From positions 1,612,001 through 1,676,000 of the forward strand of contig NZ_ATXB01000001.1 of the NCBI RefSeq assembly GCF_000421465.1: DNA of 64,000 nucleotides, written 5' to 3'. The DNA comes from Methylohalobius crimeensis 10Ki. Lineage in GTDB: Bacteria; Pseudomonadota; Gammaproteobacteria; Methylococcales; Methylothermaceae. Positions within the stretch are counted from its first letter, which is position 1. Every line of letters starts with the position of its first letter. The notes beneath the pieces are model-generated. The model saw only the letters and a list, made by a program, of their open reading frames with translations. It did not search any database and was not told the DNA's origin. The position numbers and the translations under genes were made by a program. Of the stretch, positions 37,512-51,795 are shown one piece after another.

Positions 37512-38811
37512 CCTGACTGCCTGACAAAACTCATTTTTCCATGCAAAATCAGTCATGTAGTGGAGTCAGGGATACAAAAGGTATATTGCCAAGGTAATTC
37601 CTCCATCCAGCGCGAACGATCCGAGGCCGTAGGCACGGGAGCGGGGTCGTCGGCGGAAGGCAACCACAACCGATCGATAAGCGCCTTCCCGCAAGCCAGG
37701 GCATGGTGGATCCAGTTCCAGCCGATACGGGCATAGCTCAAGCCCCGACACCAATGCGGATCGACGGTTCTACGCTGCCCCTCGGCTACCACTGCCGTCC
37801 CCTGACAGGTCACGATCCAGGTGGCCACCGCCATCACAAAGCACAGCCGATCCAAGACCTCGGCTTGCCGAAGCCGGGAAGACGCCCATTGAAACCCATT
37901 GGATTTATGGTCCAGAAACCCTTCCTCGATGGCAAAACGCTTGCCGTAATCGGCGAGGGTCGTTTCATCGGTCCATTCATCGCTCAGGATCAGCCAGGGT
38001 TCCTTGGCGCCTTTTTCCCAACCCACGGCCACGTTCACCGCTTCATGCACCTTCCAGAGATAAACAGTGTGGTAATAACGCACCTGGCCGGCATCCACGC
38101 ACCACTTCAGCGGGCGGTAACCAGCGCCGCTCCATCGCCAAGCCGGCGTATTGCGCTTCATCCGAATCCGGCAGTGCCAATCCGGTGTCCGTTTGATCCA
38201 GCGCACCAACTGCAGATGACAAAATCCACGATCGGCCAGCAAAATCACCTCAAAACCTTTCAGGCGGGAGACACTTTGCGCCAGAACCGAGCGGTAGACC
38301 TGAAAGGCCACGCTGGCACTGGGTTGCCGTTTCACCTTCCAGGCCACCGGAATCGCCCGACCCCGATACACCAACGCCACTTGAATCACACAGAAACTAT
38401 TCCATAGCATCGTCGTATCCAAGGCCACGTATACGCGGCGTTCCTCGCCCGTCGGTAACCACCCTTTCAACAGCCCCGCATACACCTCATTCACATCGAT
38501 CCGTCCGTTACTCAACCAACGCCGGAATCGCCGCTCAATGCTTTGGGCATAGCGGGCGCGGCTGTCCACATACACCACCCACCGGCTCAAACCGATGCCC
38601 CCACTCAACAACAATCCTGCGATCATCCAAGCGACCGTCGAAAGATGTCGCATATCTCGCCACGGCGCTTGTTTCAAAACCTGGGTTACCGTAACGTACA
38701 TCCGTGTGGAAGGGTTGTTCATGGGCAATTTCGTCCTTTATCAATCATCATCTCGGACGATCTACCCTACAATCCTTCCGCGCCCTCCGCGAGTTTTGTC
38801 AGGCAGCCAGG
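37512..38811 (-). mobile_element. IS4-family insertion sequence, 1300 bp
   Basis: The ends are 21-bp inverted repeats: CCTGACTGCCTGACAAAACT at the left (37512 on) and its complement with one mismatch at the right (to 38811). A 7-bp target duplication GGCTCGG flanks it at 37505-37511 and 38812-38818. One transposase gene fills the element. The intact repeats, target duplication and open transposase frame suggest a fairly recent insertion. It landed in a gene that seems already to have been damaged. Confidence 0.9.
37553..38722 (-). CDS. IS4-family transposase
   Basis: 389 residues from the ATG at 38722. DDE-type catalytic residues: Asp in YVALDTTMLWN, Asp in ILLADRGFCHL, and the diagnostic IS4 signature Y-x2-R-x3-E-x6-K in YGKRFAIEEGFLDHK. 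The fold between the second Asp and the Glu holds a beta-rich insertion as in Tn5-type transposases. The protein is uninterrupted, so the element may be active. Confidence 0.92.
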   Translation of the reverse strand: MNNPSTRMYVTVTQVLKQAPWRDMRHLSTVAWMIAGLLLSGGIGLSRWVVYVDSRARYAQSIERRFRRWLSNGRIDVNEVYAGLLKGWLPTGEERRVYVALDTTMLWNSFCVIQVALVYRGRAIPVAWKVKRQPSASVAFQVYRSVLAQSVSRLKGFEVILLADRGFCHLQLVRWIKRTPDWHCRIRMKRNTPAWRWSGAGYRPLKWCVDAGQVRYYHTVYLWKVHEAVNVAVGWEKGAKEPWLILSDEWTDETTLADYGKRFAIEEGFLDHKSNGFQWASSRLRQAEVLDRLCFVMAVATWIVTCQGTAVVAEGQRRTVDPHWCRGLSYARIGWNWIHHALACGKALIDRLWLPSADDPAPVPTASDRSRWMEELPWQYTFCIPDSTT

Positions 38812-38993: not shown

Positions 38994-40397
38994 TCATATA
39001 GCAGTTTCCCCGCTCACTTGGCTCACGACGTAACGATATTTACCCGATTTTTCAGGTGATATGTAGTCGGTGTATTTTAGCGTTATGGTTGTGTTTTCTC
39101 CCAGTCGTTGTTTCAGTTTGTTCTGAATGCGCGTCGCGTTTTCCTGTTTCCATGAACGGGGTTCTGTAACCATCAGGACCAGCAAATGTTTGAAGTCCGT
39201 TTGGACGATTTTGAATTGCTTCACCCCCGGCGTTTCCCTAAGTACGTAAATGAGCGCTAAAGCGTGCATGACGGTACCGTCGGAGCGTACGATCAAGTCG
39301 GTGCTGCGTCCCTCAACTTCGTCCAGTACTTCCAAGCCTCTTGCTTGCCGGCAAGATTCCCGACTACGCCGGGCCCGGTCCCCGGTGCGATAGCGGATGA
39401 AAGGCTGAACTTCGGAGGCCAGATTGGTGATGACCACTTCACCGAGCTCTCCTTCTGGAACGGGGTTTCCGCGGTCGTCCAGAATTTCTACCAAAATCCA
39501 TTCGGAATTGATCAGCATCTGGCCGGTAGGCGACTCGAGGGCAATGAGACCGGCATCTCGCGCACCGTATTCATTGGCAACCGGCGCATTGAAAATTCTG
39601 CCGATCAGTTCGCGTTGATGAGGATAGAGAGGTTCGCCGGTAGTGTAGATGACTTTTAATGAGGAAAGATCCGGGATGCGGCCGCGTCGTTCGGAGTGCT
39701 CGGCAAGAAGGGACAGGCTGCTGGCATAGCCGTAGAGGGTTTTGGGCCGGAAACGTTCGAGTTCGTCGAGATACCTGTCCATGTGCTGGGGAGACATGGC
39801 GAAAGCATTGAACAGTCGTTGATTGCAAAGTCGATCACGGAGGGACTTGATCCAGTCGGTGCGGTTGAGTTCGGTGGGGGCGCCCCAAAGAAAGGCTTCG
39901 CGATCACCTACGTCAACGCCCCACCAACGTCGTGCCCGGATTCTACAGGCGGCGTCAGCTGCCTGGCGTTTGCGGCCGAAATAAAAGATCAAGGGTTCTC
40001 CGGTAGATCCGCCAGTGTTATAAGGGAATATTCCTCCTGGAGCGTGACGCCATACTATTTCGCGGCCGTGTTGACGAGCGTCTTGCTTGGTCATCAAGGG
40101 AAGTTGGCGGAATTTGTCCCAGGTCAAGTCTTTCGGATCAATGCCGGCGGCTTGCATTCGTTGGCCATGCCAGGGGCAATGGGCCTCGGCGGATTGAAGA
40201 AGTTGCTTGAGGCGTTGCAGTTGAAGCGCCTCCAGCTGATTGCGAGAAAGGTATTGGGTTTTTTCCAACTCGGCCAGGTAGGGAAAAGTCGGTCTGCCAA
40301 GCAGGAACTCGTGGCCCCGGTATATTTGTCGGTGTAAAGCAGATGGCAGGATGCAAGCGCTTGCTTTGGCCGTCAGTTCGGAAATTATCACACGCAC
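38994..40397 (-). CDS. CapK/PaaK-like AMP-forming ligase family protein
   Basis: 467 residues from a GTG. Adenylate-forming motifs: PYNTGGSTGEPLIFYFGRK (P-loop, near residue 125), VANEYGARDAGLIALES and GEVVITNLASEVQPFIRYRT (near 330), ending in a phenylacetate-CoA ligase-like C-terminal domain (EKSGKYRYV). Such CapK relatives are common in capsule and exopolysaccharide loci, where they may activate an acyl or amino acid for attachment to sugar; the substrate is unknown. Its stop overlaps the start of the decayed TylF-like gene. Confidence 0.82.
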   Translation of the reverse strand: MRVIISELTAKASACILPSALHRQIYRGHEFLLGRPTFPYLAELEKTQYLSRNQLEALQLQRLKQLLQSAEAHCPWHGQRMQAAGIDPKDLTWDKFRQLPLMTKQDARQHGREIVWRHAPGGIFPYNTGGSTGEPLIFYFGRKRQAADAACRIRARRWWGVDVGDREAFLWGAPTELNRTDWIKSLRDRLCNQRLFNAFAMSPQHMDRYLDELERFRPKTLYGYASSLSLLAEHSERRGRIPDLSSLKVIYTTGEPLYPHQRELIGRIFNAPVANEYGARDAGLIALESPTGQMLINSEWILVEILDDRGNPVPEGELGEVVITNLASEVQPFIRYRTGDRARRSRESCRQARGLEVLDEVEGRSTDLIVRSDGTVMHALALIYVLRETPGVKQFKIVQTDFKHLLVLMVTEPRSWKQENATRIQNKLKQRLGENTTITLKYTDYISPEKSGKYRYVVSQVSGETAI

Positions 40398-40412
40398 CTC
40401 GGCAGATGAAAA

Positions 40413-41498
40413 TTAATAATATTTTTTGATGTCCAGGGTGTTGAGGATGGACTTTAATTTATGGATATCGACGCTAAAGTCTGAAAACCTTCCCTCACCA
40501 TCCGAAGTTAAGTAATGGTAATCGTGATCTAACGATTTGGATAAAAAGAAATAATGAGGGGTAATGGTAGGTTCCGGATGCAGTTCGATGATCGAGGCGT
40601 TTTTGGAAAAAATGATATTGGTCAAACCGGCGCCGTGCGGCGCTATGATGATATCGGCATCGTAAAAGAGTTCGATTTGATCGGAAATCGCAAGGTCTTC
40701 AAGAATATACGGTTTGAATCCGAAAGGCTCGATAATATTCAATACTTCCGTTTCATTTTTGATTTTTCTATTTCCCGCGGCATGTTTCCTGGAAACAAAG
40801 ATCCTGTTCTTTTTTTTGCGGCTTCTATTTGGAGTAAACCGGGAAACGAAGAAATCCAAATAAAAATCGGGTAGATAGCCGCAAAAAGGTCGTGACATGA
40901 ATGAATTTAATATGAGCTCGTCGGTTTTGTATATTTTTTTGTGCGAAACATACTCAAAATGAATGTTCTTGGGGAGGATTTTAGGTAAAAAATATTCTTC
41001 CCATGGTTGAAGCTTTCCTGGGACCAGAAGTTTGATGCGACATCCTTGATATTCGTGTAGTAACAAGTATAGTCTGGGAATGGTATCGATTAACGTGTGA
41101 TAATAATTGTTGGCGGAAGACCTGAAAATATTGGATGGTCCAGTTATTATTTTTTCCGATGGGAAATATAAATATCTCCAATAAAATTGATGATGCAGGG
41201 GTCTATCCGGGTGCTCTCCATGGGTGTTGTCGGACTCGAGTAGTATGGTTCTGTATTTGTTGAGGACGACATTCAGGTAAGAATAATAATAATAACCCTG
41301 AAGAGTGACCGAGAAAAGATCCGGTGGATCATAGTGTTCCACCTGAAGGTGTTTTGCCTCTTCCCTGAAAGGCATGAAAGTGAATTCCGGACAAGGGATT
41401 TTTCGGGTTCGAATGAATTTTTCGTGCTTTATATTGTTTTGATGCTCCAAATAATCTCCTCTTACCAATCGGTTCAGTATCCAGTCGGGCAGTTTCAT
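40413..41498 (-). CDS. glycosyltransferase family 61 protein
   Basis: 361 residues. The GT61 (DUF563) core is visible: [37 protein letters not shown], and [20 protein letters not shown] followed by [18 protein letters not shown]. The family includes xylosyl- and GlcNAc-transferases; an adjacent UDP-xylose synthase gene makes xylose a reasonable but unproven donor. The DNA is AT-rich relative to the CapK-like gene. The start overlaps the stop of the UDP-xylose synthase gene. Confidence 0.85.
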
Positions 41499-42448
41499 AA
41501 GCCGGTTTTTTCGCTTTTAAGCAATGCATCAAAGTAGTGAATTGTTTTTTCAAGACCGACTTCGAGTGAAGTGATGGGCGACCATTCTAAAATATTTTTA
41601 GCCAGGTCGATATTAGGCTGACGTTGGATTGGGTCGTCTTGGGGCAAGGGTTTATTGGTTATTTTTGATTTTGACCCGGTAATGTCGATGATTAGATCGG
41701 AAAGTTCCTTGATGGTAATTTCTTGCGGGTTTCCGAGATTGATGGGACCGGGACCGGAATCGACTTGCATGAATTTAATGAAGGCCTGAATCATGTCGTC
41801 AACGTAGCAAAATGACCTTGTTTGCGACCCTTCACCATACAAAGTTATGGGGCTGTTTGTTAAAGCTTGAATGATGAAATTGGATATCACTCTTCCATCA
41901 TTCATGGCCATGTTCGGTCCATAAGTATTAAATATTCGAGCCACCTTAATATCTAGATGATGTTGGCGGTAATAATCAAAGAATAATGTCTCGGCACACC
42001 GCTTTCCTTCGTCATAGCAAGCTCTAACGCCTATCGGATTTGTGTGTCCCCAGTATTCTTCCATCTGGGGATGAATTTCAGGATCCCCGTAAACTTCGCT
42101 GGTTGACGCCTGGAATATTTTGGCTTTAACCCTTTTGGCCAGTCCCAGCATGTTGATCGCACCGTGCACGCTTGTCTTGGTGGTTTGCACGGGATCGAAT
42201 TGATAATGAATGGGCGAGGCAGGGCAGGCTAGGTTATAAATATGGTCCACTTCAACATAAAGCGGGAAGGTGATGTCATGTCTGAGAATTTCAAAAAAAG
42301 GATTATCCAGTATGTCCAATAAATTTTTTTTCGATCCGGTATAGAAATTATCAACGCATAGTACATCATAACCGCATTCTAAGAGATTCCTGCAAAGATT
42401 GGACCCCAAGAAACCGGCGCCACCTGTAACCAAGACCTGTTCGTTCAT
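41495..42448 (-). CDS. UDP-glucuronate decarboxylase (UDP-xylose synthase)-like SDR
   Basis: 317 residues of the extended short-chain dehydrogenase family. NAD site [15 protein letters not shown] at the start, then [20 protein letters not shown] (typical of Uxs), [15 protein letters not shown], catalytic Tyr-x3-Lys in [12 protein letters not shown], and [20 protein letters not shown]. It should convert UDP-glucuronate to UDP-xylose in the cytoplasm, supplying a donor for the transferases nearby. It overlaps the GT61 gene downstream, which is the likely consumer. Confidence 0.9.
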
Positions 42449-43762: not shown

Positions 43763-43842
43763 AAAATCCTCTCAATCCAGAGTATAGTTATAGTCAATAT
43801 ATAGCGGCTTGCACCCTGGAATACAAGCGGAGAGTGATCGCG

Positions 43843-44427
43843 ATGGATAGTTTCGTCCTGGACACCAGTATCTTCACCAACCCCGACGTTTACGGTCAAT
43901 TCGGCGAGTCGCCGAAGGCGGCGATGGATGCCTTCCTGCACTTGGCGCGCCGCAGCGGCGTAAGATTGTACATGCCCAGCTCGGTCTACGATGAATTGTG
44001 TCTCATCAAAGGCGATGACATTCCGCCGGAGTTCGAGGCGGTGGTGCGCATCCGTTCGCCGCGCCGCTTCAATATGATGGTGCCCGCCGGGATTCTGTAT
44101 GAATTCATCGAGGAGGTGCGCGCGCGCATCGATCGGGGGCTGCGAATCGCCGAGGAGCACGCCAAGATGGTGTGGGACAGAGTCGAACCCGAAGGGCAGG
44201 GAAAGGTTATTAACCGCCTGCGCGGTCGCTACCGGGAGGCGCTAAGACAAGGTATCATCGACAGCCGCGAGGACATGGACGTGCTGCTTCTGGCCTACGA
44301 AATGGACGGCATTCTGCTGTCGGCCGATCAGGGGCTTCGCAAGTGGGCCGATAAGGTGGGGGTGAAGATCATCCGTCCCGATCATCTGCTGCAGGTGATG
44401 GAAACCTTGGTGGAGTATGGCGGTTGA
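43843..44427 (+). CDS. RNA ligase partner protein (PIN-domain, TIGR03875-type)
   Basis: 194 residues from the ATG at 43843, preceded by GGAGAG at a good distance; a GTG three codons upstream is an alternative. PIN-nuclease acidic residues: Asp7 in [15 protein letters not shown], Glu in [12 protein letters not shown], and Asp residues in [16 protein letters not shown] and [12 protein letters not shown]. This family co-occurs with the Pab1020-type RNA ligase, which is present here at 46413-47531. It probably cleaves or binds an RNA that the ligase later seals; that is unproven. Confidence 0.88.
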
Positions 44428-44430
44428 GGG

Positions 44431-44862
44431 TTATTTCAGAAAGGTGATCACGAAGAACACCGCGGTGACCGTCAGCCCCAGCGACCAGAACATGAATCGG
44501 TCCAGACGCCGGATTACTAGCTGAAAATTCTGCTCGATCCGTTCGAAGCGATTGTCGACTTGCTCGAAGCGCTTGTTCATTTGGTCGGTTAGTAATTCCA
44601 AACGCTTATCGACTTGTTCAAAACGCTTTTCCATTTGCTCGGTCAGCATTTCAAAACGCTTGTCCACTTGCTCGAAGCGCTTTTCCATGAGGTGGAAGCC
44701 TTGTTCCATCAGTTCCCGCTGATGCTTGAGCTCTTCCTCCACCCGTACGATGCGTTCGCGCAAATCCAGTTCGTAGTCGCGTTGCAGGACGCGGAATTTT
44801 TCTTCCACGATCCTTTCGACCAGTTCGCGAATTTGATCCGAGTTTTCCTCTGGCAAGGCCAT
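44431..44862 (-). CDS. coiled-coil membrane-anchored protein (DUF1640-like)
   Basis: 143 residues. Nearly all of the chain is helical coiled coil, with three tandem 18-residue repeats near residues 59-110 (MEKRFEQVDKRFEMLTEQ, MEKRFEQVDKRLELLTDQ, MNKRFEQVDNRFERIEQ). A single C-terminal membrane span (FWSLGLTVTAVFFVITFL) would anchor it with a cytoplasmic or periplasmic rod. Similar small CCDC90/DUF1640-like proteins are widespread with no fixed role. It is convergent with the PIN gene, 3 bp apart. Confidence 0.72.
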   Translation of the reverse strand: MALPEENSDQIRELVERIVEEKFRVLQRDYELDLRERIVRVEEELKHQRELMEQGFHLMEKRFEQVDKRFEMLTEQMEKRFEQVDKRLELLTDQMNKRFEQVDNRFERIEQNFQLVIRRLDRFMFWSLGLTVTAVFFVITFLK

Positions 44863-44901
44863 GGTGGGTTAGCCGGTCTCTGATAGTTGATTATTATTAT
44901 A

Positions 44902-45010
44902 CCACCCTCACCCTGGCCCTCTCCCGCCAGCGGGAGAGGGGGTAATGATGTTTGGGTACCCAAGTCGTGTTCCTTCTCCCGCTGGCGGGAGAAGGCTAGG
45001 ATGAGGGTGG
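44902..45010. repeat. inverted-repeat element with two perfect hairpins
   Basis: Outer ends CCACCCTCA and TGAGGGTGG are complementary (44902-44910 and 45002-45010). Inside lie two palindromes, CCCTCTCCCGC-CA-GCGGGAGAGGG (44917-44940) and CCTTCTCCCGC-TG-GCGGGAGAAGG (44972-44995). The same hairpin occurs once at 56608-56630. The element fills the gap between the coiled-coil and beta-helix genes and may double as a terminator or mRNA stabiliser. Confidence 0.75.
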
Positions 45011-45038
45011 TTCAAAACAGGCATTTCCTATTGATCTC

Positions 45039-46400
45039 CTACCGATTGCCACATACGGGGCCAGGCCGCCGCTCGAGCGCCGGCCGCCATCCTGGGTTCA
45101 CACCGGCTCCGGCATAGGCGCCCCGGTAGGTCCCATCGCGATGCGTGCCGTTGAAATCGCAGCGCGACCGGGGGTAGTCGGCAAGTTCCCGCCAGTCGAT
45201 GGGCTCCGATCGAAGCTTGCCACGGATTGGATAGAAATCCAATTGCCCCAGCGGGCCGTTGGGGTAAACGAGGTGATCTTTTGCGGCGTTGAAGGAAGCC
45301 GTGATATTGCGAGACTGTTGGCCGCCTTGCAAAGGCGTTTCCGAAAATACCGCGTTGGCGATGACCTTCTGATCCTTGTTTTTCTGATCTTCTTTGTAGA
45401 GTATCCGGATGCCTTTCCAGGGATTCAGCACCGTATTGAAAAAAATCCGTACCTTGCGGGGAATGTCGTTGTGAGGCTGGATGGCCACCGCGGGGAACTG
45501 GGGTGCGTGGGTGTTGAAAAATAGGTTGTTGTAGAGGGCGATATTGCCTTCCCCCTGGAACAGGGCTTCGGTGGGGTTCTGGTAAAAGAAGTTTCCATAG
45601 ATCAGATAGCGATCATGGCGCCCGGGGCCCTCGAGAGGAAGATGGCCCACCAGCACGTTGGGGCGCGCCGCCGGCCCCGTGGAGCTGTCCGGCCCTTTGC
45701 TGAACACGTTGTAGCGGATGGTCGTGCTGCGCCGATTTTGGGGAATGCCGGGAATCTCCGGCCTCCGGTTCTGGTGCTTGATTTGCAGATTGTAGCCCAT
45801 GGTGTGCATGACCAGGTTCCCCTCGATGAGCCCGCCGATGAACGGGTCGCTCCCATCGGAGTTGCCCAAGTACATACCGGTGCCGGCGCCGTCGATGACG
45901 TTGCCGCGTATGATCCAATCCCAGGTCGGACATTTGGTGGAGATGCCCACCATTTGCTGGTTTCGGCCCAGACCGTGGATGTGCAGATTTTCCAGCGTAA
46001 TATGGTGGGCGAACCGCCCCGATGCCCGGACCGCGTTCACCAGTTCGCCGCGCCCGTCGAGCTCCAGGTTCCGCAGGGTAACAAAGCTCGAATCTCGGAG
46101 AACGACCATATCCTGACGGGGCTGTGCGAAGAATACCACGCCGACGCGAGATCGGCCCTCGATCACAATCGGCTTGCCCCGAGTGCCGTGCATATTTTGG
46201 AGCCGCAGTCCTCGGCGGTATTCGCCGGGGGCCAGTTTCAGGGTGTCGCCGGGGGCGAGTTTTGTAATGGCGGCGACGTAGTTGCGGGGCGTCGCGGCGT
46301 AGCGGGCTGGCCAGCCGCCGCCGGAGACGCAAAAGAGCATTACGGCGGCGAGCAGGCAGGCCGGAGATCTTCGAATTTTAGGGTTGCGCTGAGGGATCAT
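45039..46400 (-). CDS. exported parallel beta-helix protein
   Basis: 453 residues. An N-terminal hydrophobic segment (ACLLAAVMLFCVSGGGWPA) is a likely signal peptide. Then comes a pectate-lyase-like right-handed helix: DTLKLAPGEYRRGLRLQN, KPIVIEGRSRVGVVF, SSFVTLRNLELDGRG, HHITLENLHIHGLG and IIRGNVIDGAGTGMYLGNS. The best guess is a periplasmic or outer-surface polysaccharide-binding or -cleaving protein (alginate epimerase or lyase-like), but no catalytic set is evident. It lies between the RNA ligase and its PIN partner and is probably unrelated to them. Confidence 0.72.
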   Translation of the reverse strand: MIPQRNPKIRRSPACLLAAVMLFCVSGGGWPARYAATPRNYVAAITKLAPGDTLKLAPGEYRRGLRLQNMHGTRGKPIVIEGRSRVGVVFFAQPRQDMVVLRDSSFVTLRNLELDGRGELVNAVRASGRFAHHITLENLHIHGLGRNQQMVGISTKCPTWDWIIRGNVIDGAGTGMYLGNSDGSDPFIGGLIEGNLVMHTMGYNLQIKHQNRRPEIPGIPQNRRSTTIRYNVFSKGPDSSTGPAARPNVLVGHLPLEGPGRHDRYLIYGNFFYQNPTEALFQGEGNIALYNNLFFNTHAPQFPAVAIQPHNDIPRKVRIFFNTVLNPWKGIRILYKEDQKNKDQKVIANAVFSETPLQGGQQSRNITASFNAAKDHLVYPNGPLGQLDFYPIRGKLRSEPIDWRELADYPRSRCDFNGTHRDGTYRGAYAGAGVNPGWRPALERRPGPVCGNR

Positions 46401-46412
46401 CGGATGGTTGTT

Positions 46413-47531
46413 TCAATCGAACACCATCTTGCCCGCGAGCAGGTCTCCCAACATTCCGGTCAGAGCGGGGTAAACGCGCTCGAATTCCAGCAGCCAATAG
46501 CCGTCTTCCCGGCGCAGGTCGCGGCGGATGATCTGGACGCTGCGGCTGGCGCGATGGAGGTGCTTGAACAGCATTTCGGCGTTTTCCTTGTTTCGAAAGC
46601 GGCAACGAAAGTGTTTGCTCACGTGGTGGGTTCGGCGATAGCGGGTCATCGCCGCGCCCAGTCCATCGAGGAAAGCGCCCCCCAAGGCCTGTTTCAATTC
46701 AGGGGTGGGGGGGAGGTCGTGTTCCTCGATGAACAAACCCAAACGCAGCAGGCGATTGGTGAAATAGTGGGGAGGCAGGTCGAGCAGATTGTCGCTGGTG
46801 GCCTGGATGTCGTCGATGTTGCTGTTGCCGGTGACGTACTTGGCGCGGTGGTCGCGGGGCGAATCCTCCTTGAACACCAGCCCTTCGCGCCATTCTTCGT
46901 GGAGGCGGAGAATCACCGCGCTGATTTGTTCGATCTCGTCGATTTGGAAATAGCCGTGCCGAGGGGCCGGGGGCAGGCCGTACCGGTCAAGGTACGCTTG
47001 TTTTTCCCGGTAAGGCAGAAAGCCGGCTTTTCCCCGGGTCATCAGATCGAACACGAACAGTTGCACGTCCTCCGCGACGAAAGGCGGCGTGCTTTCCAGA
47101 TAGGGATTGTCGGGACCGGCCACTTCGGCGCAAACGACTTTATCCGGTTCCGCTTGGAAAATATCCAGCGGCATCAAATCCCCCAGGCGGTCGGTGGTGA
47201 AGGGGCAGACGAAACCGCCGCGGGTGAGGGCGACGACTTGATCGCCGATTCGGGCGATGCGGACGTTGTAGCCGTTGATTTTTTCCTCGGCCCAGAAAGG
47301 TCTTTTGAAATGGGCCTTGAGGCCTGCCTCGAGGGCGAACACGCGGCCGATGTGCGGGTAGCCGTCAATGACCGTTTCGCCGAATACGGCGGTGCCGCGG
47401 GGAATATGCTTCCAATCGTCGACGTAATGACAGTAGTCCAGTCCCTGGAAGCGCTTGGCAAGCGCCTTCTTTTTGCGTTTGGCCTCGGGAATGTGGGCCA
47501 GGATATCGGCGGCGGTGGGCGATTGGGACAT
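46413..47531 (-). CDS. ATP-dependent RNA ligase, Pab1020/Rnl3 family
   Basis: 372 residues. Nucleotidyltransferase motif I FWAEEKINGYNVR has Lys84 as the AMP-accepting residue; motif III-like QLFVFDLMTRG, motif IV EGLVFKEDS and motif V AKYVTGNSN follow in order. The extra C-terminal domain (KHFRCRFRNKENAEMLFKHL) is that of homodimeric archaeal-type RNA ligases (TIGR01209), which seal or circularise RNA. It is rare in Gammaproteobacteria to my knowledge, suggesting transfer. Its PIN partner is 2 kb away. A decayed copy of its 5' end lies at 50510-50586. Confidence 0.88.
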   Translation of the reverse strand: MSQSPTAADILAHIPEAKRKKKALAKRFQGLDYCHYVDDWKHIPRGTAVFGETVIDGYPHIGRVFALEAGLKAHFKRPFWAEEKINGYNVRIARIGDQVVALTRGGFVCPFTTDRLGDLMPLDIFQAEPDKVVCAEVAGPDNPYLESTPPFVAEDVQLFVFDLMTRGKAGFLPYREKQAYLDRYGLPPAPRHGYFQIDEIEQISAVILRLHEEWREGLVFKEDSPRDHRAKYVTGNSNIDDIQATSDNLLDLPPHYFTNRLLRLGLFIEEHDLPPTPELKQALGGAFLDGLGAAMTRYRRTHHVSKHFRCRFRNKENAEMLFKHLHRASRSVQIIRRDLRREDGYWLLEFERVYPALTGMLGDLLAGKMVFD

Positions 47532-47615
47532 GATCGGGTACAGTCCGTCCGTTTACGGCATTGTAACGTGCAGAAAATCTCCTGACCATGATCAGCCGAA
47601 TCGGCGGCGGTATTG
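47501..47615. repeat. direct repeat A (ligase 5' end and ykgJ-like start)
   Basis: This stretch covers the start of the RNA ligase gene, the divergent gap, and a decayed start of a ykgJ-like frame (ATG at 47588, with MISRIGGGIVSYCLG, then stop). It aligns with 50556-50670 over its whole length with scattered substitutions, for example ATGTCGGCGGC at 50558 against ATATCGGCGGC, and GGCATTGTA in both. In copy A the ligase is intact and ykgJ is dead; in copy B the reverse holds. Confidence 0.75.
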
Positions 47616-47631
47616 TTTCCTATTGCCTCGG

Positions 47632-48882
47632 CTAGGAAGAATCAAACAACCGACGGATTGCGGCGATAAGATCTCTATGAATCATTTCATAGTGAAGACG
47701 CGCCTGGTTTTGACTCTTCAGATGCTGATCGATGTTGGTCCGAGTCAGTTGAATGCCGGGCTTAGTTAAGGAATCATCGACCTTGCATCCAAAATCTCTC
47801 AGCATGGTTTGAAGTATCAATTGCCCTAACTCATCCCGGTAATGTGCCGGCTCCCAAAACCATTTTAGCTCCTTCACAAGGTCCCCCGTGGGCGGGGGCT
47901 TCTCCGTTGTATATCTATTGAAATTGGAAAAATCCCAGAGAGTTGCCTGGTATTCTTGAGTGACCAATCTGACAATAAGCTGCTTCCATCGCTCGAACAA
48001 GGGCCAATGTCCCGATTGCCGAATCAGTTCTAAATATTCAGCGTGGTAAGGATTGATGAATACAATGGCCCGGGCGTCCCGAGCGTTTAGCCAGTGCAAT
48101 ATATGCTTTAACGCTTCAAGGGGACGAGACCAGTCGTGTTTGCCCTCCATTAAACCCCAATTCCTTTTTAATCGATTAGCCAGCTGTTGCTTTTTTTGTG
48201 CAAAAAGGACGCCTTGGCCTTCGGTATGAATGATATTTCGATAGTATCCCTCCGCCGGATTGAAGCCTTCGGCTGTTCGGGTAACCGCGTAAGGAGTATT
48301 TTGGGACCCTAGGGTTTTAATGCTGTCACTCAGTGCTGTCAAGGAGATAAGACTATTACGATAGTCCACAAATTTCGCCAGTCCATAATCCGGGTTCCTG
48401 TCGCCTTCTGCGGTAACTAGAAGTCTTTTTTCCTGCGGCGACCTCCGGGGTGGCCATTGCATGGGGTTGACGAGGCTATCTGCAGGGACTAGAAAATCCA
48501 AAAAATCGATGCCTATGAAAACAAAAAGGGGTGAGGTTCCCGAAATAGCATGCTGCAAGTAACGGGCCTGCATATACATGTCGGTGCCCGGAAAAGTCAA
48601 GCTGTAGACTTTGCCGAGTTTCCGTAGACATTCATGGCGCGGGTTCAGACCCATCTCCGGGCGCGAATTACCGATAATAAGTATTTCGGGTTGTCGTCGA
48701 ATCACCTGATAGGGTTTAAAAAGATAGGAGCGATTAGCCGCCGCGGGTTTGTCGTCGTTGAATCCATCAATTCTTATTGTTTCTATCAAGCCATAAGGAT
48801 CTACCAAGTAATTCAGGACGCCAATGCCAACGAGGCAAAGGCAAACCGTCAGTAGCCAGGTGATTAGATACGACTTTGTCAT
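47632..48882 (-). CDS. SGNH/AlgJ-like membrane-anchored protein, acyltransferase partner
   Basis: 416 residues with an N-terminal membrane anchor (LITWLLTVCLCLVGIGVLNY) and a periplasmic domain. ILIIGNSRPEMGLNP fits the Ser-containing block I of SGNH hydrolases, though in the GNS form with an unusual spacing; later LTFPGTDMYMQARYL and WFWEPAHYRDELGQLIL carry a Trp/His pair like the catalytic Asp/His block. Such proteins work with MBOAT O-acyltransferases to acetylate exported polysaccharides. It follows the MBOAT gene by 5 bp. Confidence 0.75.
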   Translation of the reverse strand: MTKSYLITWLLTVCLCLVGIGVLNYLVDPYGLIETIRIDGFNDDKPAAANRSYLFKPYQVIRRQPEILIIGNSRPEMGLNPRHECLRKLGKVYSLTFPGTDMYMQARYLQHAISGTSPLFVFIGIDFLDFLVPADSLVNPMQWPPRRSPQEKRLLVTAEGDRNPDYGLAKFVDYRNSLISLTALSDSIKTLGSQNTPYAVTRTAEGFNPAEGYYRNIIHTEGQGVLFAQKKQQLANRLKRNWGLMEGKHDWSRPLEALKHILHWLNARDARAIVFINPYHAEYLELIRQSGHWPLFERWKQLIVRLVTQEYQATLWDFSNFNRYTTEKPPPTGDLVKELKWFWEPAHYRDELGQLILQTMLRDFGCKVDDSLTKPGIQLTRTNIDQHLKSQNQARLHYEMIHRDLIAAIRRLFDSS

Positions 48883-48887
48883 TCGAA

Positions 48888-50450
48888 TTAAAACTGAAAA
48901 TAGAGAAATTCAGAGACTTCGGAAAGGGTCAAAATGCCCAGAACTGTCACAACGCCCGTGGCAACTGCCCATGATATACTTGGTTTCCACAACCAAAGAT
49001 TCCGGGGTGGGGTTCGTTTATCCTGGCGAAAGCTGAAGTTTGGGTCGTAGCCACTCAACCACTCCTGAGTATTCGGAAAAAACAAGGCGATTATTCCCGT
49101 CACAATGATCCATGACCAGGCCTTTACGAATTGGCTGCCTCCGCCCAAAGTGGGTTCCACACCCCAGCTTTCCAGCAAGTCAGCGGCGGATCCAAGACGC
49201 ACGACGATCGCGTTCGGTAAGCTTACCCCATGCACACCGGACATGCCTGATAAAAGCGTCATGGCGCTCGGCAAGTCGGCGGAACGAAAGAAAACCCAGC
49301 CCACCACCACTGCGAAAAAGGTCAGTAGCCAAGAGACCGTTTGACCAAATCTTGCCAAAATTGTGTTGGGTTTGTTCGGAAAAAGCTTGAATTTGTGCCA
49401 GACATGATTTACGAACAAATAAAATCCATGCAATCCGCCCCACACCACGAAAGTCCAGCCCGCTCCGTGCCACAGCCCCCCTAACAGCATCGTCACCATT
49501 AAATTGAGATAACGGCGCGCGGAACCATTGCGATTACCACCGAGGGGAATATAAAGATAATCGCGTAAAAAGCGAGAAAGCGTAATATGCCAACGCCTCC
49601 AAAATTCGATGATGCTGGTTGCCTTATATGGAGAATTGAAATTAAGCGGCAAAACGATTCCGAACATGCGAGCACCTCCAATGGCCATATCCGAATACCC
49701 TGAAAAATCGAAATACAACTGCATGGTATAGGCCAAGGCTCCGCTCCAGGCCGTCAGTAAGGAAATAGCCCCGCCAGTTCGGGCGTCATCAAATACAGGC
49801 GAAGCATAGGCGGCTACACCGTCAGCCAAAACCCCCTTTTTAAATAAACCAATAGAAAAAATCGTGATTCCAATTGCCAGATTTTTTGAGCACAGGACGT
49901 TCAAGGTCCGGCGCATGAATTGCGGCAGCATTTCTTGGTGATGCACAATAGGTCCCGCAATGAGTTGAGGGAAAAACGTTACGAACAGTGAGTAATGAAG
50001 AAATCTTTGCTCGCGTGCAACCCCCCGAAATGCATCCACTAAATAGGCAATCTGTTGAAATGTAAAAAATGATATTGCCAGCGGCAGGAAAATTTCAGGC
50101 ATGTGGAGTTTGGATCCCGTGAGAGCATTGATGTTAGTTATAAAAAAATTGGCATACTTATAATAGCCAAGCAAAGCCAGGTTCAGACAAATTCCAAGCG
50201 TCAGGAATAATCTCCTGGATTTCTCGTTGCCTAAAGGGTCTGACAATATCTTTCCTATTGTATAGTTTGCTAATATGGAAAATATTATCAATCCCAAATA
50301 AGCAGGGTTCCACCATCCGTAAAAAAAGAGGGAAGCAATTACTAACCACCCTAGCGCTAGCTCTTTATTGAACCTCCTAAGCAATAAGATAAATACCAAT
50401 AAGGTCAGTGGGAAAAATGCAAAGATGAACTGGTAGGAATTGAATAACAT
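48888..50450 (-). CDS. MBOAT-family O-acyltransferase (AlgI-like)
   Basis: 520 residues with about eleven membrane spans. Family hallmarks: YTIGKILSD, YLVDAFRG, the RRWHITLSRFLRDYLYIPLGG block and the catalytic His in LGGLWHGAGWTFVVWGGLHG. It passes acyl (usually acetyl) groups across the inner membrane to a polysaccharide, probably together with the SGNH protein encoded next. The cassette has a base composition different from the ligase and repeats on both sides, consistent with insertion as a unit. Confidence 0.92.
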   Translation of the reverse strand: MLFNSYQFIFAFFPLTLLVFILLLRRFNKELALGWLVIASLFFYGWWNPAYLGLIIFSILANYTIGKILSDPLGNEKSRRLFLTLGICLNLALLGYYKYANFFITNINALTGSKLHMPEIFLPLAISFFTFQQIAYLVDAFRGVAREQRFLHYSLFVTFFPQLIAGPIVHHQEMLPQFMRRTLNVLCSKNLAIGITIFSIGLFKKGVLADGVAAYASPVFDDARTGGAISLLTAWSGALAYTMQLYFDFSGYSDMAIGGARMFGIVLPLNFNSPYKATSIIEFWRRWHITLSRFLRDYLYIPLGGNRNGSARRYLNLMVTMLLGGLWHGAGWTFVVWGGLHGFYLFVNHVWHKFKLFPNKPNTILARFGQTVSWLLTFFAVVVGWVFFRSADLPSAMTLLSGMSGVHGVSLPNAIVVRLGSAADLLESWGVEPTLGGGSQFVKAWSWIIVTGIIALFFPNTQEWLSGYDPNFSFRQDKRTPPRNLWLWKPSISWAVATGVVTVLGILTLSEVSEFLYFQF

Positions 50451-50509
50451 GGTCTCAGGCTCAACTATTGTGGATAATTCTTTGCACCCCTATCCACTTA
50501 TGGTGTCCA

Positions 50510-50586
50510 ATCCCCTGGCCGTTTGGTGATGAAAGGGCAGAAGTAACCGCCGGCAGGATGTCGGCGGCGATGGGCAATTGGTGCAT
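50510..50586 (-). pseudogene. RNA ligase fragment with internal deletion
   Basis: The ATG at 50586 starts MHQLPIAADILP, matching MSQSPTAADILA at the start of the intact ligase. A shift of frame then gives GGYFCPFITKRPGDWTP, matching GGFVCPFTTDRLGDLMP from about residue 105 of that ligase. About 90 codons between the two are missing, and no more of the gene follows. It lies opposite the intact ykgJ gene. Confidence 0.75.
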
Positions 50587-50670
50587 GAGCGGGTAGAATC
50601 CATCCGTTTTTGGCATTGTAGCTTGAGGATATTCCTATGACCATGACCTGTCGGTTCGGCTGCGGCGCCT
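50556..50670. repeat. direct repeat B flanking the acetylation cassette
   Basis: Second copy of the sequence at 47501-47615, in the same orientation, about 3.05 kb away. It spans the ligase remnant start, the spacer with GGCATTGTAG, and the real start of ykgJ (ATGACC...TGCGGC). The SGNH/MBOAT genes lie exactly between copies A and B. Confidence 0.75.
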
Positions 50671-50894
50671 GCTGCATCGCACCTTCCATATCCAGTCCGA
50701 TTCCGGGCATGCCCGAGGGCAAGCCCGCCGGGGTGCGTTGCGTGCAGCTCACCGACGATTGGCGTTGCCGTTTGTTCGGCATGCCGGAGCGGCCGGCGGT
50801 TTGCGAACGATTTCAGGCGGATTCGCAGATATGCGGTGACAATCGGGGGGAAGCGCTATGGCAATTGGAAATGCTTGAAACTTTAACGAAATAA
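50637..50894 (+). CDS. YkgJ-family cysteine cluster protein
   Basis: 85 residues. The pattern is CRFGCGACC-IAPSISSPIP, then GVRCVQLTDDWRCRLFG, then RPAVCERFQADSQICGD; it is the family set of Cys residues thought to bind zinc or an Fe-S centre. A second in-frame ATG two codons on (50643) is equally possible. Function unknown. A decayed counterpart of its first codons is at 47588-47635, next to the intact RNA ligase, so ykgJ and the ligase were probably once divergent neighbours. Confidence 0.82.
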   Translation: MTMTCRFGCGACCIAPSISSPIPGMPEGKPAGVRCVQLTDDWRCRLFGMPERPAVCERFQADSQICGDNRGEALWQLEMLETLTK

Positions 50895-51062
50895 GGGACT
50901 GGCTTTATCCACCGCGTCCAAGTCGTCGCGGGGAATGAGGGCGGCTTGGCTGGAGTCGTGGTTATACCGGGTTCCCACTGGATTCAGGCGGTGGCGGAAA
51001 TGGATTTCAGGAAAACCTTGAGGTAGCTTGAATTGCTTCAAAAATTTTAGGGATGGGATTCA

Positions 51063-51482
51063 ATGTTAGATCTCGGTAGTCTGGAAAAAGCATTACATAT
51101 TTATCGGAAGGTGGCGAGCAAAGCCCAAGATGCCACCTTCATGGACAAGTTGGACAAGATTGCCCGGCAGGCGGTTCGCGCCGGAGCGATCCAGCATTTC
51201 GAGTTCAGCTATGAACTGTGCTGGAAGTCGATGCGCCGCTGGTTGGAGCAGAATTTGGGGCGCTCTTACGTGGATGGCGTTTCCCGGCGCGAGTTGTTTA
51301 GGTTGGCCGCCGAGCACCAGTTGATTGAAAGTGTGGATCGCTGGATGTTTTATCACCGGGCGCGCAACTTGACCTCCCATACTTATCACGAAGAAACGGC
51401 TTGGGAGGTATTTAACGTTGCGGTTGACTTCATAACGGACGCCGAAGCGCTTTTAGCTGCTCTCAAGCAACGCAATGATTGA
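51063..51482 (+). CDS. HEPN-domain protein, HI0074 family
   Basis: 139 residues. Helical, with GAIQHFEFSYELCWKSMRRW and the R-x4-H ribonuclease motif in HRARNLTSHTYHEE. Paralogous to the protein at 35959-36348. The downstream MNT gene overlaps its end by 8 bp; here HEPN precedes MNT, the opposite of the order in the wzm/wzt module. Probably a toxin or regulator held in check by AMPylation by the MNT partner, as shown for related MNT/HEPN pairs. Confidence 0.87.
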   Translation: MLDLGSLEKALHIYRKVASKAQDATFMDKLDKIARQAVRAGAIQHFEFSYELCWKSMRRWLEQNLGRSYVDGVSRRELFRLAAEHQLIESVDRWMFYHRARNLTSHTYHEETAWEVFNVAVDFITDAEALLAALKQRND

Positions 51483-51769
51483 TTTGACAGCGGCGCAGTT
51501 GGACATTGTGCGTCGCATTTTGGCGGCCCATGTCCCCGAATGCGAAGTTTGGGCGTTCGGTTCCCGGGTAACCGGAAAGGCTCGGCCTTATTCGGACTTG
51601 GATCTGGCGGTCAAATGCGCCAAGCCGCTTTCCTTGCAGCGCTTGTTTCGGCTTCAAGATGCCTTCGAGGAATCGACGCTGCCGTTTCGAGTCGATGTGG
51701 CCGATTGGCAGCGTCTTTCCGATGGCTTTCGCGAGCGGCTGGCAAGCGAAGGCGCGCGGCTTTGGCCGC

Positions 51770-51795
<26 letters not shown>
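51475..51795 (+). CDS. MNT-type nucleotidyltransferase, HI0073-like
   Basis: 106 residues. [20 protein letters not shown], then DLAV, gives the G-S-x10-D-x-D catalytic motif. The end ([20 protein letters not shown]) retains the Trp that is a stop codon in the homologue at 36413-36646. It is the expected antitoxin for the HEPN protein just upstream. Its 3' end overlaps the convergent ettA gene by 26 bp. Confidence 0.87.

Follow-up and report, generated by a model that had tools for sequence, protein, structure and literature searches.

PatA/PatB and DltB/DltD are described acyltransferase gene pairs (PMC12148441). A pair much like them is found in a 64,000 nucleotide stretch of the methane-oxidising bacterium Methylohalobius crimeensis 10Ki (contig NZ_ATXB01000001.1, positions 1,612,001 to 1,676,000), here called the window. 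Going by that source's account, the likeness covers the gene pair itself, the histidines of the MBOAT protein, the FXYXXF motif, and an SGNH fold with serine and histidine in the partner. The subject here is the place where this MBOAT-SGNH cassette sits, which is between two copies of the junction of an RNA ligase gene and ykgJ.

Acquired genes have to obtain a promoter, and how they do so with resident genes left unbroken is a recognised problem; one described route to activating horizontally transferred genes is promoter capture by tandem duplication (PMC11111574, which cites Li and Bock 2019). The present locus would be similar in that a duplicated native promoter-like element, a promoter by sequence only, ends up before an acquired gene. 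The events in that source also took place in the laboratory under selection, whereas this is an old natural locus whose mechanism has to be reconstructed.

For pneumococcus there is a model in which a donor fragment integrates between chromatids and so produces a tandem duplication (PMC3784515). The Streptococcus pneumoniae merodiploids of that source are comparable, since there too tandem duplication is tied to incoming DNA; for this locus, transformation would be a guess. The scale differs: the merodiploid duplications span some 100 to 900 kb, with donor fragments partly repeated in the chromosome, while the surviving duplication here measures around 450 bp. A literature search, judged by titles, found no publication on this locus.

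The best explanation overall is that the junction was duplicated, that the cassette lies between the copies, and that the operon would be driven by the duplicated ligase promoter; this is thought probable, with modest confidence. Promoter duplication accompanying horizontal acquisition is likely. That adds one more natural case to a type of event already known; it leaves the general picture unchanged and is not a new system. The locus does preserve both junction copies, their remnants and, in relatives, the empty site, which means that the steps of the event can be read and tested.

The repeated junction and its remnants

The repeat finder reports direct repeats at 47499-47610 and 50554-50665, 112 nt long, 77% identical, ungapped and 3055 bp apart. 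A first-pass annotation, made from the letters of the window, had claimed imperfect direct repeats of about 115 bp at 47501-47615 and 50556-50670, and these were borne out with refined limits. The local alignment score of the pair is 120, where 300 first-order Markov shuffles gave a mean of 29.6, a standard deviation of 4.5 and a maximum of 53. Each repeat is a copy of one junction: copy 1 holds the ligase start, an intergenic stretch, and the first 23 nt of ykgJ counted from a conserved ATG. Its similarity to ykgJ stops at 47610.

Beside copy 1 lies the intact RNA ligase (46413-47531, minus strand), a TIGR01209 family member at 334.1 bits (NCBIfam cut-off 136.9) which also matches RNA_ligase and Lig_C in Pfam. 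Beside copy 2, the intact gene is ykgJ (50637-50894, plus strand), of the CxxCxxCC family (Pfam PF03692, 30.9 bits with a cut-off of 23), which stands at 67-74% to seven congeners.

The other half of each copy is a remnant. Next to copy 2, 50491-50552 on the minus strand matches ligase positions 47162-47220 with a score of 55 and 45 identities (maximum of 500 shuffles: 40). Among eight ligases, its best match is the ligase of its own genome, at 55 versus 26-42 for those of seven congeners. By this alignment the second ligase copy is an internally deleted remnant that lacks 47221-47498 (278 bp). The earlier description of this copy as a deleted ligase fragment with an intact ykgJ therefore agrees with what is found, and the fragment extends further than had been noticed.

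For the first copy, the annotation had proposed an intact ligase start facing a dead ykgJ start. The ligase half of this holds up. The ykgJ start is not simply dead, however. The gene has two ATGs, of which the first (50637) reads CTG in copy 1; the other, present in all nine junctions compared (those of seven congeners and the two copies), survives there at 47588-47590. What follows is a remnant on the plus strand (47588-47635), which closes after 15 codons with a TAG at 47633-47635 and has lost the cysteine codons at the aligned N-terminal positions. Its similarity to ykgJ is clear only to 47610.

Copy 1 and the SGNH stop codon (47632-47634) are separated by 21 bp, the ligase remnant and the MBOAT ATG (50448-50450) by 40 bp. 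The two genes thus fill the space between the copies, exactly as had been claimed.

The state of the site without the cassette can be seen in relatives. The genus sample consists of ten genomes including this one; the ligase, MBOAT and SGNH proteins were searched among 61 genomes including these, and ykgJ in the ten. A divergent pair of adjacent ligase and ykgJ genes, uninterrupted and without the cassette, had been predicted, and 7 of 9 congeners have it (the contig of G005 ends within the ligase). In the remaining two, the ligase of G001 adjoins ABC-F with no ykgJ match, and G006 has a match to neither gene. Neither MBOAT nor SGNH has a match at E 0.001 in any of the nine. In G002 the order is partner gene (discussed below), ligase, ykgJ, ABC-F and glyA, the same as in the window minus the extra genes. 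Beyond ykgJ, the 12-20 kb of G003, G007 and G009 matched none of the window proteins tested; the ABC-F side is therefore not the same throughout the genus.

Gene order and alignment together show an ancestral locus consisting of a divergent pair, ligase on the minus and ykgJ on the plus strand, that shared an intergenic region of around 50 bp. They also show the duplication of a stretch that includes at least 47162-47610, either in this lineage or in a near relative that served as donor, with the MBOAT-SGNH operon now lying between. One copy kept the ligase whole and the other kept ykgJ whole, and what was redundant in each is now a remnant.

The two copies are 77% identical to each other, and the nearest of seven congener junctions is at 61%. 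In a tree of the 112 columns they come out as sisters (98% bootstrap, 200 replicates); the stem measures 0.68 and the branches 0.255 for copy 1 and 0.040 for copy 2, or 0.30 between the copies. Their sister relation places the duplication in this lineage or in one closely related to it. On this short alignment, the duplication appears younger than the split from the congeners examined, yet old enough for heavy divergence. With the empty site in relatives, this leaves standing the proposal that the junction was duplicated with the cassette between the copies.

No convincing second junction copy was found in the seven congeners, in stretches of 5.0 kb (G004), 4.0 kb (G005), 20 kb (G007, G008) and 40 kb (G002, G003, G009). 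The native junction of G002 is cut by the boundary of its stretch, and a score of 218 is that native copy. Three other G002 scores (31, 35 and 37) slightly exceed the maxima (30, 33 and 33) of only 15 shuffles, and one G007 score equals its maximum of 36. Within the own genome, a search with 50480-50680 (maximum E 10) returned 33 matches, being the query itself and 32 with an E of at least 0.05; this search did not recover copy 1, and a larger query likewise failed to recover copy 2. Such a search is blind to 77% identity over 112 bp, so its negative proves little. Nothing comparable was seen at the neighbouring inserts (44431-46412 and 50895-51769), where six alignments against end sequences of the partner gene, ligase, ykgJ and ABC-F all scored below the maximum of 200 shuffles.

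The order of events can also be read differently. In a single event, the cassette would have arrived on DNA that already carried a ligase/ykgJ junction, either a circle integrating by a single crossover or a transforming fragment that bridged sister chromosomes. Direct repeats bracketing an insert are the expected trace of this, and the interchromatid integration modelled for pneumococcus (PMC3784515) duplicates DNA in such a way. This accounts for the layout about as well as duplication followed by the cassette. Against it, no donor is seen: none of the 13 class-level and none of the 15 order-level SGNH loci has a ligase or ykgJ match within the 2.7-4.2 kb examined of each. The edges of 21 and 40 bp are also too short for an integrase or an insertion sequence. 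A single event is considered rather unlikely; it concerns only the order of events and is compatible with a promoter role for the duplicated junction.

Insertion first and duplication later was rejected by reasoning, as a simple tandem duplication would then copy the cassette or leave a broken gene.

The acyltransferase pair between the copies

The first cassette gene (48888-50450, minus strand) encodes an MBOAT O-acyltransferase, with 114.1 bits for Pfam PF03062 (cut-off 27) and a sequence match to DltB at E 1.5e-26. Residues His288, His328 and Tyr517 are invariant in 30 of 30 aligned sequences, the window included. The protein ends in FLYFQF, an instance of FXYXXF, a motif found at the C-terminus of 29 of 29 MBOAT homologs examined and described as the acyl shuttle of PatA and DltX (PMC12148441).

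The second gene (47632-48882, minus strand) encodes the SGNH partner. In distinction to the PatA/PatB and DltB/DltD systems, this protein has no match in Pfam, NCBIfam or PDB sequences at the thresholds used, so its class assignment comes from a predicted fold (pLDDT 91.6), which is DltD-like. The model aligns to DltD with Z 13.3 and a root mean square deviation (rmsd) of 4.8 over 258 residues, and to PatB with Z 11.2 and an rmsd of 4.6 over 186. The top Foldseek match is DltD as well, at E 1.7e-4 and a modest TM of 0.40. Ser73, Asp317 and His347, residues of a putative triad, do not vary among 19 sequences, and neither does His280; in place of the usual DxxH the protein has ExxH.

At all 15 order-level loci examined, and at 11 of 13 class-level ones, an MBOAT gene lies upstream of the SGNH gene on the same strand, no more than 0.8 kb away. 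The other two class-level loci have no MBOAT in the stretch examined, and four extra loci (L060-L063), being second matches of genomes already counted, were excluded. Judged by sequence and model, the cassette is an ordinary MBOAT-SGNH acyltransferase pair. By analogy, the two proteins would pass an acyl group, probably acetyl, from the cytoplasm to an extracytoplasmic polymer, by way of the MBOAT C-terminal tyrosine and the serine of the SGNH protein. The polysaccharide genes in the left part of the window may make this polymer.

A recent plasmid source was considered and rejected: in a search with MBOAT only, protein relatives were on 136 of 72,556 plasmid records, all below 60% identity.

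A promoter-like element in the junction

In 9 of 9 junctions, ATTGTA and ACCATG are 19 nt apart. Read on the minus strand this is TGGTNN-17-TACAAT, a sigma-70-like element that points at the ligase and has its -35 box over the ykgJ start. Both copies in the window carry TGGTCA-17-TACAAT, on the minus strand: copy 1 at 47560-47588 towards the ligase, and copy 2 at 50615-50643 towards MBOAT-SGNH. Both come from a consensus scan, together with the conserved spacing.

What is new here is a promoter-like element in the junction, of which the duplication has set a copy ahead of MBOAT-SGNH, leaving copy 1 with the ligase. The duplication would have provided spare DNA in which the cassette could sit with neither gene broken, and would have placed a second ligase promoter, together with the region of the ligase start, directly ahead of MBOAT and pointing the same way. 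Transcription of the operon would then come from the ligase promoter of copy 2, and copy 1 would still drive the ligase.

Translation may be involved as well. A reading frame of 41 codons (50461-50586, minus strand) begins at the duplicated ligase ATG (50586-50584) and ends 10 nt before the MBOAT ATG, and it may be used as a leader. Anti-Shine-Dalgarno pairing of the 20 nt before the ligase start comes to -5.7 kcal/mol in both copies, and translational coupling of the frame to MBOAT is possible. In its fullest form, copy 2 would serve ykgJ one way and the acylation operon the other, with the leader translated and coupled to MBOAT, and copy 1 would serve the ligase alone. This remains a speculative proposal, more doubtful than plausible. 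If true, the locus would be a natural fossil of the capture of both a promoter and a translation start by junction duplication.

A number of observations weigh against a duplicated and working ligase promoter. The consensus scan is weak by itself, with 8 sites where 4.1 are expected (standard deviation 1.9), and one of the 8 is a similar site inside MBOAT (49118-49090); as the excess is small, it is conservation and not the scan that is the evidence for a promoter. The fixed spacing to the ykgJ ATG may in turn be partly a ykgJ start signal. The ribosome-binding site of MBOAT is weak (-2.8 kcal/mol), so that coupling or another start signal would be needed. Between the copies, 26 columns differ, two of them ties, and congeners side with copy 2 in 17 of the 24 decided columns (p 0.064). 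In the ligase part they agree with copy 2 at 4 of 5 columns, even though its ligase is the dead one; were that ligase simply decaying, agreement with copy 1 would be expected. The sample is small; copy 1 may have changed faster, or copy 2 may have stayed in use. The annotation had called the copies reciprocal, which fits gene truncation and does not fit point decay. Base composition speaks in favour of the overall explanation, with a limit: the cassette genes have a GC content of 0.46-0.48 and a GC content at third codon positions (GC3) of 0.51, against a GC3 of 0.74-0.82 for the ligase, the beta-helix gene, ABC-F and glyA, but three PaaK-like/polysaccharide genes at 38994-42448 are low in GC3 as well (0.45-0.57), and the cassette is not alone in this.

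The apparent nearness of copy 2 to the congeners, with the longer branch of copy 1, would also suit xenologs, where one junction is native and the other was imported with its neighbouring gene from a related species. Yet the copies are each other's nearest relatives, and the ligase (67-71%) and ykgJ (73-74%) are about equally distant from most congeners. G008 is lowest for both (63% for the ligase and 67% for ykgJ, with a 61-residue piece from G005 set aside). An imported junction is therefore very improbable.

More weight goes to a neutral scar, in which the cassette uses a promoter of its own and the duplicated ligase promoter is idle for it. The case for this is that the promoter in copy 2 is a predicted one with a putative role in expression, and that its consensus match is weak in isolation. 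On the other side, the copy 2 element is intact and correctly oriented, the MBOAT ATG and the ligase remnant are just 40 bp apart, and no other minus-strand site between 50099 and 50614 comes out of the scan, which covers sigma-70-type sites only. A scar is a serious possibility, though less likely than not.

Neighbouring genes

The PIN gene at 43834-44427 belongs to the RNA ligase partner family (TIGR03875), which is taken to be HARP, the protein-only RNase P that has been linked with this ligase family (PMC12153264). Of 80 named loci, 58 have it in convergent orientation to the ligase. In the window, the two are separated by 2 kb containing a coiled-coil gene (44431-44862) and a beta-helix gene (45039-46400); inserts at this place also occur in G008 (around 0.9 kb) and G001 (around 10 kb).

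The partner protein is at 85% to G008, versus 76-79% to the other six congeners compared. For the PaaK-like protein, by contrast, G008 is the least similar congener (53%), and it is so for the ligase too when only full-length matches count (63%). Going by these figures, the partner gene was possibly exchanged.

On the other side, an HI0074 / MntA-like nucleotidyltransferase pair lies between ykgJ and ABC-F at 51063-51795, the MntA model scoring below its cut-off. G002 has around 11 bp where the window carries this pair.

A transposase (DDE_Tnp_1, 37553-38728) lies in the polysaccharide region, around 9 kb from the repeats. The coiled-coil gene contains three 54-bp repeats (44542-44703), and an inverted repeat at 44901-45011, with 40-nt arms that are 90% complementary and 31 nt between them, separates it from the beta-helix gene.

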